DNA from: Candidatus Gastranaerophilales bacterium
GTDB taxonomy: Bacteria > Cyanobacteriota > Vampirovibrionia > Gastranaerophilales > Gastranaerophilaceae
Assembly: GCA_944323655.1 (NCBI GenBank)
Contig: CALUTL010000018.1
Coordinates: 1 to 32,479, forward strand
Direction of reading: 5' to 3'
Length of the DNA stretch: 32,479 bases
This document shows, piece by piece, positions 29,530 through 32,479 of this stretch; the first letter of the stretch is position 1, and every line of letters starts with the position of its first letter. The notes under the pieces are model-generated. The model was not told the origin of the DNA. It searched no databases and saw nothing but the letters and a program-made list of their open reading frames with translations. The translations under genes and the position numbers were made by a program.

Positions 29530-31041
29530 CTACAACACCTCGCTTAACTTTATTATTCCATTGTAGAATGCTCCGCATATACTGTCGTAATCTTCCCACG
29601 CATAAGTCGTCAGGCTCAACCATATTATCGCATTTAACAGTTTTATCTTATATTTGCTTACATTAGGAAGACAGTCAAAGAAAAATTCTTCCATATCAGC
29701 CCAGTTATTTGATTTTATTGCCATTTCTACGTCTTTTTCACGTATATCTAACGTGAATTTTTTACGATTAAACTGATCATACTCACCTTTTAATGAGTAA
29801 TAAAGCTTTGCCCAATCATAATCTACATCTCCGTAAAACTTCGTCTTTCCAAAATATCCTCGAGGATCTATTAAAATTGCCTTCATATTGTATGTGTCAA
29901 ACATTAAATTTGAAAACGTACAATCACCATGTATTAGTTTGAATTCTGTTGGATAAATCGTTTTTATAGTTTCAGCCAATTCTTCTTTGTTAAAAAATAC
30001 ATTCTTATAATAATTTCCGTTTATTTTTATAAACTCTTTATCTGCAAACGGAACAAGATTTTCAACTTTTGAAAGCCTGTCAAAAGTTTTGTTTAAGAAG
30101 TTAGCCTCAACATCTTGAATATTTACCGGCTGCGCCGGCTCTAAATTATGAAGCTCCTTTAATGCCTCAATTAGTTTTCTTAAAATCTCCCGTTTTTGAG
30201 TCTTTGTCAGACAATCATATTCAAATATATTTTTACCTTGAACACGCTTCATTGTTAGGGGTTCATAATCGTATATTTCAGGGATATTTTTGTATCCTAA
30301 TTCTTTTACATGCTTATACCAAGCAATCTCATCAGCAGCGATTTTCTTTCCCTGCTCATTTATGCCGCGCTTTACTATTATATCCCCGTTAAATTCCATA
30401 GAATTAAACGGCCTGCAACGCGGAGTTGAATCGTTATTGTCTGAATATGAAAGAAGAGTGCCTATTTCTTTTGAACCATATAAATCCAAACGGTTAAATT
30501 TAATATCTTGATTTTGAAGCCAGCCGACAAGAGCACCTTCTTCTGCTATATTTTTTAACAAACTTTTGTTCTCAAATATAAATAACCCAGCAATACCGTT
30601 TTCTTTCGAAGGCTCTTTTATAAACTGATTATTTATATACGACCAACGACATTCGAAATCCTTTGAAATTCCTATATAATTACCCTTTGTTTCCGGTATT
30701 TGAAAATTGTCCGACAAAATTAAATCACACCACATTATCATAAACGGTTCTGTGTCCGAATATTCGGATATGGCTTCTTTTATACCCGAAATTGTACCTT
30801 TTTTAGAAGCTTTTACTATTTTATACTTGTACTGTGAACCAAAAGCTTTCAAATACTTCTCTAGCACATCTGTTTTATAATCTGCTATTATTGTGAATTC
30901 TGCATCTTTAAAATTCTGAAATGCATAAAATATAATCGGTAAATTATTCACAGGCACCATGCATTTAGGTTTATTTCTCGTTAAACCTTCTAATCTCGTC
31001 CCTTTTCCACCCGCCTGAATTATTATTTTTTTTATAACCAT
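29530..31041 (-). CDS. Bifunctional sugar nucleotidyltransferase - phosphotransferase fusion
   Basis: A 503-residue two-domain protein. Residues 1-215 are a nucleotidyltransferase: the loop AGGKGTRLEGL (10-20) with Lys25 and Pro26 and the metal Asp in MWCDLIL (103-109). Residues 216-503 resemble an aminoglycoside/choline-kinase fold: MKRVQGKNIFEYD (264-276), the catalytic HGDCTFSNLMFD (371-382) and the metal motif IDPRGYFGK (391-399). Together it can phosphorylate a small polar group or sugar and activate it as a nucleotide, as separate LicA and LicC do for phosphocholine; the substrate here is unknown. AAGGGG precedes the ATG. It heads the operon, followed 3 nt later by the HAD gene. It may use CTP, but GTP and others are possible. 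Confidence 0.88.
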   Translation of the reverse strand: MVIKKIIIQAGGKGTRLEGLTRNKPKCMVPVNNLPIIFYAFQNFKDAEFTIIADYKTDVLEKYLKAFGSQYKYKIVKASKKGTISGIKEAISEYSDTEPFMIMWCDLILSDNFQIPETKGNYIGISKDFECRWSYINNQFIKEPSKENGIAGLFIFENKSLLKNIAEEGALVGWLQNQDIKFNRLDLYGSKEIGTLLSYSDNNDSTPRCRPFNSMEFNGDIIVKRGINEQGKKIAADEIAWYKHVKELGYKNIPEIYDYEPLTMKRVQGKNIFEYDCLTKTQKREILRKLIEALKELHNLEPAQPVNIQDVEANFLNKTFDRLSKVENLVPFADKEFIKINGNYYKNVFFNKEELAETIKTIYPTEFKLIHGDCTFSNLMFDTYNMKAILIDPRGYFGKTKFYGDVDYDWAKLYYSLKGEYDQFNRKKFTLDIREKDVEMAIKSNNWADMEEFFFDCLPNVSKYKIKLLNAIIWLSLTTYAWEDYDSICGAFYNGIIKLSEVL

Positions 31042-31274
31042 TACTAAGATGACCCCTTTTTGTCTCTTTCTTAATATCTTTTTATATTACATATTTATAA
31101 TTTTCAATAAGCTATTTCTTATCTCGTGGTAATTTTAACATAAATAAAAATTACTATCATAAATTAATAATAGTGCAAAAAATTAATATTATATCAATAT
31201 TACTTATAAAGACTTATAAAGATAATCTTAAATCCGATTTAATTTACAAAACATGAATAATTTTCTAAATTATA
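31042..31274. other. AT-rich intergenic region upstream of the operon
   Basis: No gene found. A possible minus-strand promoter is TTGAAA (31102-31107) with TATAAA (31081-31086, 15-nt spacer) before 31041. A tandem 10-bp repeat (ACTTATAAAG, 31202-31211 and 31212-31221) lies nearer the tRNA. Confidence 0.5.
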
Positions 31275-31346
31275 AGCGGACGACGAGACTCGAACTCGCG
31301 ACGTCAACCTTGGGAAGGTTGCATTCTACCACTGAATTACATCCGC
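31275..31346 (-). tRNA. tRNA-Gly(CCC)
   Basis: A full cloverleaf on the minus strand: acceptor GCGGATG with CGTCCGC (one G-U), D arm ATTC/GAAT, anticodon stem CAACC/GGTTG with loop TTCCCAA, so the anticodon is CCC, and T arm GCGAG-TTCGAGT-CTCGT. The discriminator is T and CCA is not encoded. It reads GGG, a rare codon in an AT-rich genome. Confidence 0.93.
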
Positions 31347-31360
31347 TTAAATACACTATA

Positions 31361-31388
31361 ATTTTATCATAAATTTAAATATTTTCAA
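31361..31388 (-). promoter_or_regulatory. Promoter of tRNA-Gly
   Basis: On the minus strand TTGAAA (31383-31388) and TAAAAT (31361-31366) are 16 nt apart, with TGA just before the -10 as an extended element. Transcription would begin about 8 nt before the tRNA. Confidence 0.7.
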
Positions 31389-31494
31389 AACTTTTTTATT
31401 TATAATCTTACAATTACAAAATTTATTAAAGAATTCAATAAAGCTAACCGTTTAATTCAGCCATAGGTTAGTAATATTAAAAAAGGAGAGCTTT

Positions 31495-31748
31495 ATGGTA
31501 GACAATATTAATAACTTTGGCAACGGGCAAGAATGGACAAAACAACGGTACCTGTAGCAAACGGTAATTTCTGTAGGGTTTTAGAATATAATGACGGGGC
31601 AGGAACAACAGTAAAATACAATTACGACGATTCAGAAAATCTGGCTCCAACAGGAGTGAATGTAACTTCAAACGGGGAAACAAAGACAGTAAATTACGAA
31701 AGAAAAGAAACCATCGACCCGAATTTATACAATTTTGTAGAATTCTAA
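31495..31748 (+). pseudogene. Frameshifted small gene
   Basis: A strong AAAGGAGAG site precedes an ATG at 31495, but that frame stops after 20 codons (MVDNINNFGNGQEW...). A second frame, offset from the first, begins at 31533 (ATG) and runs 71 codons to 31748, with YNDGAGTTVKYNYDDSENLAP and NVTSNGETKTVNYERKE cut short here, beta-repeat-like patterns. Joining the frames near 31530 would give one protein of about 80 residues. The cause may be a true frameshift, a sequencing error, or two separate small genes, of which the 31533 start has no ribosome-binding site. Confidence 0.55.
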
Positions 31749-31765
31749 AGGACAATGTAAAGAAA

Positions 31766-31802
31766 CACATGGTTTGATTTCTTGTTCCACATGGTTTGAT
31801 TT
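31766..31802 (+). repeat. 15-bp direct repeat
   Basis: CACATGGTTTGATTT occurs at 31766-31780 and 31788-31802, 22 nt apart start to start, just after the small frameshifted gene. The second copy runs into a T run. Confidence 0.8.
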
Positions 31803-31935
31803 TTTTCGGCAATTTAGTTTTAAAAATTTAAAAATATGAGCTGATTTTTTCTCAAAATCGTCAGTTACTTTTTCGTAAACTTGTTGTCAATTTAATTTAT
31901 ATTATCTTTTTGCCAAAAGTTTATAATGGCAACTA

Positions 31936-32479
31936 TTATATCAAATATTTAATTAAATATTCCTCTTCTTTCGAATGTTCTCTAAAGTATTTATTATGAT
32001 AATCAATTGCCCAATTTACTTTTTCTATAGCTTTTTCATCTGGTGCTTCATTTTTTAATTTAATCAATGTATCTTTTACATATCTTGCCATATCTTCTGT
32101 AATATAATTTGTTAAACCAAGTTGGCTATAATAATTGATAAATAAAAATTTATCACTATCTTTACAATAACTTTTTTTATTTGTTGAAAAATTATCAACA
32201 AAATCTTCATTTAAAATAATTCTTGGGTCTTTTGCTTGTGAATGTTCCATATCAAAAGCAGTAAGTAAACCATCACCATAAACAAAGGTTTCATCTAAAT
32301 ATAGATTCCCGACAGTAATTCCACCTCTTAATAACAGTCCACAAAAAATGGCCATTGCTTGAAATTGCCCGCATATAGCAATCATTCTTGAATACAAGTC
32401 TAAAATGCTGTTGATTTCCAGTCTAAAAAACCGACCAAAGTTGCTCTGGTCGGTTTTCCTGTAAACGGATTTATTACTT
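31936..32479 (-). CDS. Class III nucleotide-cyclase-like protein (5' end outside or truncated)
   Basis: The frame is open from the stop at 31936 to the right edge (181 codons seen). The core reads LLLRGGITVGNLY then FVYGDGLLTAFDMEH and PRIILNEDF, a pattern I associate with short nucleotide-cyclase-like palm domains (RGGIT-G; a later FG-AL-AY-LE; then PRI). The C-terminal ~90 residues are Lys/Glu/Tyr-rich. Within the N-terminal part is a perfect terminator-like hairpin (32429-32455), and two TAA stops in another frame lie upstream of it (32471-32476). So either the protein is long and the hairpin is incidental, or the gene is truncated at a junction after someone else's terminator and starts near the TTG at 32397. 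No catalytic Asp pair is visible in the part seen. Confidence 0.6.
   Translation of the reverse strand, partial: SNKSVYRKTDQSNFGRFFRLEINSILDLYSRMIAICGQFQAMAIFCGLLLRGGITVGNLYLDETFVYGDGLLTAFDMEHSQAKDPRIILNEDFVDNFSTNKKSYCKDSDKFLFINYYSQLGLTNYITEDMARYVKDTLIKLKNEAPDEKAIEKVNWAIDYHNKYFREHSKEEEYLIKYLI
32429..32455 (-). terminator. Terminator-like hairpin at the right edge
   Basis: A perfect 9-bp stem (32429-32437 with 32447-32455, 9-nt loop) with six T on the minus strand. It suits a gene ending at the TAATAA near 32471-32476 (minus strand), but it lies inside the open frame of the cyclase-like gene. Confidence 0.55.

Follow-up and report, generated by a model that had tools for sequence, protein, structure and literature searches.

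The window analyzed here is the whole of contig C18 (32,479 nucleotides; contig end at 32479) from a 1.95 Mb genome in 33 contigs, and its right-hand end is probably the remnant left by an internal deletion in a transposon that carried a defence-type cyclase. According to this reconstruction, a DDE transposon of Mu/TniA-TniB type would have inserted approximately 400 bp from tRNA-Gly, with its right end now forming the right edge of the contig, and an internal deletion with a 1-bp overlap would have removed everything from the middle of the transposase gene through codon 129 of the cyclase-like gene. The full element would have comprised transposase, ATPase, cargo, cyclase-like gene, and right end, with all genes reading towards the right end. 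No intact element was found in which this transposase and cyclase occur together with this right end, and the gene order of the parent element is therefore inferred from other loci. The remnant would be non-autonomous, with the whole transposase and the aspartate-bearing half of the cyclase gone, and its right end would perhaps still be recognisable by a transposase. Mobile-element remnants of this sort are ordinary features, and the case illustrates that a hairpin within coding sequence may be mistaken for a terminator when it lies at the edge of a contig. The features are listed in Table 1.

Table 1. Features at the right-hand end of the window, and gene orders at four loci of intact homologues.
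Feature	Position	Strand	Remark
tRNA-Gly(CCC)	31274..31347	-	~400 bp from the insertion site
Flanking chromosomal gene, apparent pseudogene	31495..31748	+	lacks ~770 bp present in G009
Non-coding stretch between cyclase stop and transposon right end	31756..31935	-	two ATGGTTTGATTT repeats; terminus TGTAAAGAAACACATGG at 31756
Cyclase-like 3' part, codons 130-285 (remnant, 5' part missing)	31936..32404	-	99.8% over 639 bp to L037
Junction of transposase and cyclase similarity	32404..32405	.	1-bp overlap; transposase frame stops just past it
Piece from within a transposase gene of Mu/TniA type (rve, Mu-transpos_C)	32404..32479	-	cut by the contig end
Hairpin, transposase codons GKPTRATLVGFL	32425..32459	-	absent from the terminator scan listing
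L041			HsdM-cyclase-TIR-HsdS-..-HsdR
L042			HsdM-cyclase x3 (tandem paralogues)-HsdS-..-HsdR
L043			HsdM-RhuM/Fic-172 aa-cyclase-HsdS-HsdR
L049			HsdM-272 aa-302 aa-cyclase x2-HsdS-..-HsdR

The first-pass annotation of this DNA had reported a cyclase-like frame with an RGGITVG core and a terminator inside it. Such a frame does exist, running on the minus strand from 32478 to 31936 (180 aa), containing LLRGGITVG, and remaining open into the contig edge. The frame and the hairpin taken for the terminator are both real, split over two genes. Where that frame begins, at SNKSVYRKTDQSNFGRFFRLEINSI, it is transposase sequence read out of frame, since the 76 bases at 32404-32479 match transposase genes: identity is 96% to a gene on contig C7 and 81% to one on contig C6 of the same genome, and 98.6-98.7% to two loci of G011 and one of G009, genomes of the same genus. 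The cyclase-like part begins only at the position matching codon 130 of its 285-codon relative, in agreement with the suggestion that the gene is truncated. The proposed junction is likewise present, at 32404, with the contig stopping 75 bases further on, but it is preceded by the middle of a transposase gene, where the annotation had supposed that another gene ended at a terminator. The window's transposase frame ends in ...FLDWKSTAF, with a stop codon immediately beyond the junction; no transposase-cyclase fusion protein would therefore be made.

The hairpin is strong (16 pairs with G-U counted; -21.5 kcal/mol over 44 nt), and TAATAA indeed lies in another frame, beginning at 32476 on the minus strand, out of the transposase frame. 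A terminator inside the cyclase gene was nevertheless ruled out: the hairpin encodes transposase residues, and its T run makes up the stem's 3' arm, with no further T run behind it by sequence. A terminator scan of 30000-32479 returned a single terminator-like site, at 30750, and none at the hairpin. The counter-argument anticipated in the annotation, that the hairpin is simply part of the coding sequence of an intact gene, holds with regard to coding, but the gene is the transposase and not the cyclase. In the closest transposase genes (own genome and genus) the hairpin reads VINPFTGKPTRATLVGFLDWKSTA, also given as GKPTRATLVGFLDW. Among 11 distinct sequences compared, window included (duplicates and matches shorter than 61 bases were left out), the six closest keep the hairpin. 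The other five, 76-85% identical, all keep a closely similar peptide; four of them have no such hairpin (-6.6 to -10.6 kcal/mol) and in the fifth, L066, a strong hairpin forms from a different sequence (-16.2 kcal/mol). Because the peptide is kept while the hairpin is lost from four of five or replaced, the comparison gives no clear sign of selection on the fold.

The transposon family can be described from an intact copy, L076, in which a transposase with rve and Mu-transpos_C domains (Pfam) is followed by a TniB-like ATPase; Mu-transpos_C and TniB also occur together in a relative within the same genome. This pairing of transposase and TniB-like ATPase, which marks a Mu/TniA-TniB-type transposon, is found in L076, and the window holds only the 76-bp piece. 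As in other transposons of this type, the transposase is followed by an AAA ATPase matching TniB, the right end starts with TGT and carries short internal repeats, and a cargo gene lies nearby. In contrast to them, no TniQ or other target selector was identified, the third gene of the L076 copy encoding a 224-aa protein without Pfam hit, and the left end of the window copy lies beyond the contig; a target-site duplication was likewise not seen for this copy. We take the element to be akin to Tn5053- and Tn7-like DDE transposons. Two further loci have unusual arrangements. At the end of C7 in the same genome (L002:648-2048), rve is followed by HTH_17 where Mu-transpos_C would be expected and the frame runs off the contig; this is either another rearranged transposase copy or an assembly join. 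At L073:4871-5085, a right end is directly followed by sequence that by eye resembles the DNA preceding the L076 transposase; two elements may be joined here.

The right end of the transposon is defined in several copies. Similarity between the window and L037, the locus of the intact cyclase relative, breaks at window position 31756 and L037 position 5202, at TGTAAAGAAACACATGGTTTGATTT, beyond which L037 runs into unrelated DNA. The same terminus is found in L073, again followed by unrelated DNA, and in L077, where it lies next to the chromosomal gene that also flanks the window copy, about 15 bp from the window's insertion point. There are five further matches to the right end in the same genome; those on C29, C3, and C23 start at the base matching 31756, while those on C4 and C6 start three bases inside and three bases outside that position. 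A search of the repeat pattern for both transposon ends found the right end and gave ambiguous left ends. Across the order, 279 of 383 genomes match some part of L037:1992-5205; among the matches listed, most fall in the last 180 bases (the right end), some in the FRG genes, and many are weak. The flanking gene at 31495-31748 is frameshifted and has itself lost about 770 bp internally relative to L077:3034-4083 (G009); a short run of A overlaps at the deletion.

When contigs were scanned for the window's cyclase fragment, one locus was returned, L037, a Candidatus Gastranaerophilales MAG contig that is apparently G328:C19, from another genus of the same family. The window is 99.84% identical to it over 639 bp (31766-32404), and all 153 residues compared are the same. 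By comparison, the one other window gene tested against the L037 genome was 68% identical over 490 of its 1854 bases. This difference suggests recent transfer across genera, and the element may accordingly be one that moved recently; contamination of one bin is less likely. The intact L037 gene (4143-5000, 285 aa) lies downstream of three genes with FRG domains. The window fragment has neither of the two conserved aspartates of its relative (D40 and D110) and is for that reason presumably inactive. A second family member, intact, is present in the same genome on contig C26 (L067:103-840). Downstream of this copy, as far as the contig reaches, the DNA resembles that of L059, in which the next gene is hsdS-like; a transposon end was looked for beside the C26 copy and none was recognised.

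That the intact L037 protein is a class III nucleotide cyclase is predicted from structure and alignment. Neither Pfam, NCBIfam, nor PADLOC gave a hit for it, and the family is recognised by no model of these collections here; Pfam Guanylate_cyc matched one of 26 homologues, at E 0.06. Against PDB sequences, a single-sequence search found no match and a profile search gave two chance-level hits, neither a cyclase. Structure prediction of the protein (L037:4143-5000; AlphaFold2, six sequences) returned a model with mean pLDDT 76.2 and pTM 0.76. Foldseek placed this model with 618 matches at E<=10, ten of them at E<=0.001 (best E 1.8e-4), and the best 50 of the 618 were all nucleotide cyclases. 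Furthermore, VIA-align of the model with adenylyl and guanylyl cyclases reached Z scores of up to 14.7 (154 residues, 2.7 A). In the alignment of 26 homologues, D40 and S109-D110, which are lost in the window, and R156-G157 and P190-R191, which are kept, are invariant in all 26; from their position, D40 and D110 would bind metal. Both hallmarks of class III cyclases, the fold in the predicted model and the two aspartates in the alignment, are therefore present in the intact relative. Pyrimidine cyclases (PycCs) have catalytic motifs in common with class III cyclases and require divalent cations, and EaPycC has two metal-coordinating aspartates (PMC11224242).

The reading that competes most seriously with a biological deletion at 32404 is that assembly, library preparation, or binning produced a chimera at the join, a transposase tail having been wrongly attached where a repeat breaks the contig, with the cyclase intact in the organism. 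We consider this unlikely, though with a probability that is far from negligible. Only 75 bp separate the join from the contig end, which falls within a many-copy repeat family, the junction is seen in one assembly only, and the other odd transposase join, rve with HTH_17, is also at a contig end (C7). These points weigh against the deletion. The explanation as a whole is also weakened in that neither a left end nor a target-site duplication was seen for this copy, and in that a single contig supplies the FRG neighbourhood. However, only 1 bp is common to both sides at the join, which we judge too little for a k-mer misjoin, and a neighbouring gene about 860 bp away, well inside the contig, carries a further internal deletion relative to G009. 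The internally deleted transposon accordingly remains the preferred explanation, and the deletion appears to be biological.

Two other readings give the cyclase fragment a function. In one, a 153-aa C-terminal piece would be expressed from a TTG at 32397, for example titrating dimers of the C26 family member; the open frame, the 153 residues equal to L037, and the intact copy in the same genome speak for it. By inspection, though, no gene start site was inherited, the C26 protein is just 26% identical, and the identity to L037 is accounted for by recency, which makes this reading very improbable. Equally improbable is a working Pycsar-type antiphage locus continuing to the right of the window. 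The link to Pycsar drawn in the first-pass annotation is conjectural. The predicted class III fold and the FRG neighbours in L037 speak for it, and the Foldseek results include 8jsf, a cytidylate cyclase (E 1.5e-3), and 8jsz, a uridylate cyclase (E 3.3e-3), both ranking below several adenylyl and guanylyl cyclases. Against it, the intact cyclase has no PADLOC match and no cyclic-nucleotide receptor was found beside it. PADLOC includes Pycsar models, and gave no hit at E<=1 for the intact L037 protein or the C26 copy; on the window frame it returned a weak RmrA match alone (E 0.035). The profile search of PDB sequences, as noted, gave no cyclase, and no PycC was noticed among the best 50 VIA-align matches listed, which excludes nothing. 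Above all, no intact PycC is present at the window locus, where the gene starts at codon 130 of 285, with codons 1-129 and both aspartates missing and transposase sequence in front of it.

The intact relative resembles the PycCs 8jsf and 8jsz in its (predicted) class III fold, single cyclase domain, and two conserved aspartates, and some homologues lie near other defence genes. It differs from them in having no detectable sequence similarity to the solved chains and in that no PycTM or PycTIR with a cyclic-nucleotide-binding domain was found; that domain (Pfam) was absent from the three L037 FRG proteins and from the TIR neighbour in L041. A TIR-like gene also lies two genes from a cyclase homologue in L099. 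The three L037 FRG genes (Pfam FRG, E 8.8e-14, 2.8e-10, and 1.4e-8), in tandem directly upstream of the cyclase gene, also match the PADLOC models of PDC-S15, an FRG candidate defence protein. Going by its naming, PDC-S15 is presumably a single-protein candidate, whereas L037 has three FRG genes together with one cyclase-like gene. The ART superfamily is described as including FRG domains, which may be NADases (PMC9503650). A linkage of FRG and cyclase genes as an established system was considered and set aside, having been seen in one contig only, L037.

In view of the predicted fold, the conserved aspartates, and the neighbouring genes, the intact family most likely consists of defence signal enzymes. 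On phage attack, the intact cyclase would make a cyclic-nucleotide signal and so switch on partner effectors, the FRG proteins in the case of L037. In the titles and abstract openings covered by the literature search, a coverage lying outside preprints (bioRxiv) and most subscription papers, neither the cyclase family nor the element was described.

Relatives of the window fragment were present in 3 of 14 genomes of the genus, own genome included, and in 32 of 288 of a family-wide sample; with the full-length query, 36 of 383 genomes of the order sample had relatives. The surroundings of 34 loci (L037-L070; 345 kb, several cut by contig ends) were read, comprising L037 and 33 of the 35 non-window places of the family (G213:C101 and G273:C5 excepted, tandem copies counted once). 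Twenty of the genomes holding these loci each supplied one hand-positioned control stretch of 12 kb (240 kb in all). Restriction matches at E 1e-10 were obtained at 12 of the 34 loci, compared with none of the 20 control stretches. The queries came from six of the 12 matching loci (L041, L042, L043, L047, L049, and L063), and with these source loci removed the count is 6 of 28. HsdM, HsdS, and HsdR (Pfam) surround the cyclase at four loci (Table 1); HsdR adjoins it in L050 and L057, and HsdS does so in L091, outside the 34. Relatives of the transposase or TniB were found at 7 of the 34 loci (L046, L052, L053, L056, L063, L066, and L068), compared with 0 of 20 controls. Restriction matches are absent from 22 of the 34 loci and the partners vary, which argues against a fixed system.

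A wider interpretation, tentative and in our estimate rather unlikely, is that the family represents a class III cyclase branch, so far undescribed, which restriction systems have incorporated as a sentinel and Mu-like transposons have spread in modules. One to three cyclase copies would be flanked by hsdM and hsdS, or would adjoin other defence genes that encode nucleases or target NAD; a cyclic nucleotide would be made when restriction is overcome, firing TIR, FRG, Fic, or SIR2 effectors, and Mu-like transposons would distribute the modules among the Gastranaerophilales. If the family does signal, it would represent a second-messenger arm for restriction loci.

Outside the order, phage records gave no match for the window fragment. 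Plasmid records gave 7 distant matches for the fragment and 11 for the intact protein, all annotated as 'hypothetical protein'. Three plasmid neighbourhoods were read: in Rhizobium, an AAA ATPase, an endonuclease, and a patatin-like gene; in Sporosarcina, mostly plasmid upkeep and hypothetical genes; and in Cupriavidus, integrases and a cytosine methyltransferase. No partner was consistent across the three, and a fixed two-gene system beyond the order is correspondingly less likely. On a viral contig, L097, MmeI, cyclase, and DEAD helicase genes lie in a row.

Among the individual arrangements, cyclase-like genes stand upstream of hsdS in type I restriction operons at L041, L042, L043, L049, and L091. 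A Schlafen-type helicase lies beside the cyclase in L054 and L060, with a SIR2-like protein in L054 as well. In these two neighbourhoods (L054:1503-8673 and L060:3848-7949), the Schlafen-type helicase and the cyclase-like protein recur with a third protein, of 469 aa, for which L054 gives a weak HEPN hit; the combination may constitute an unnamed defence locus.
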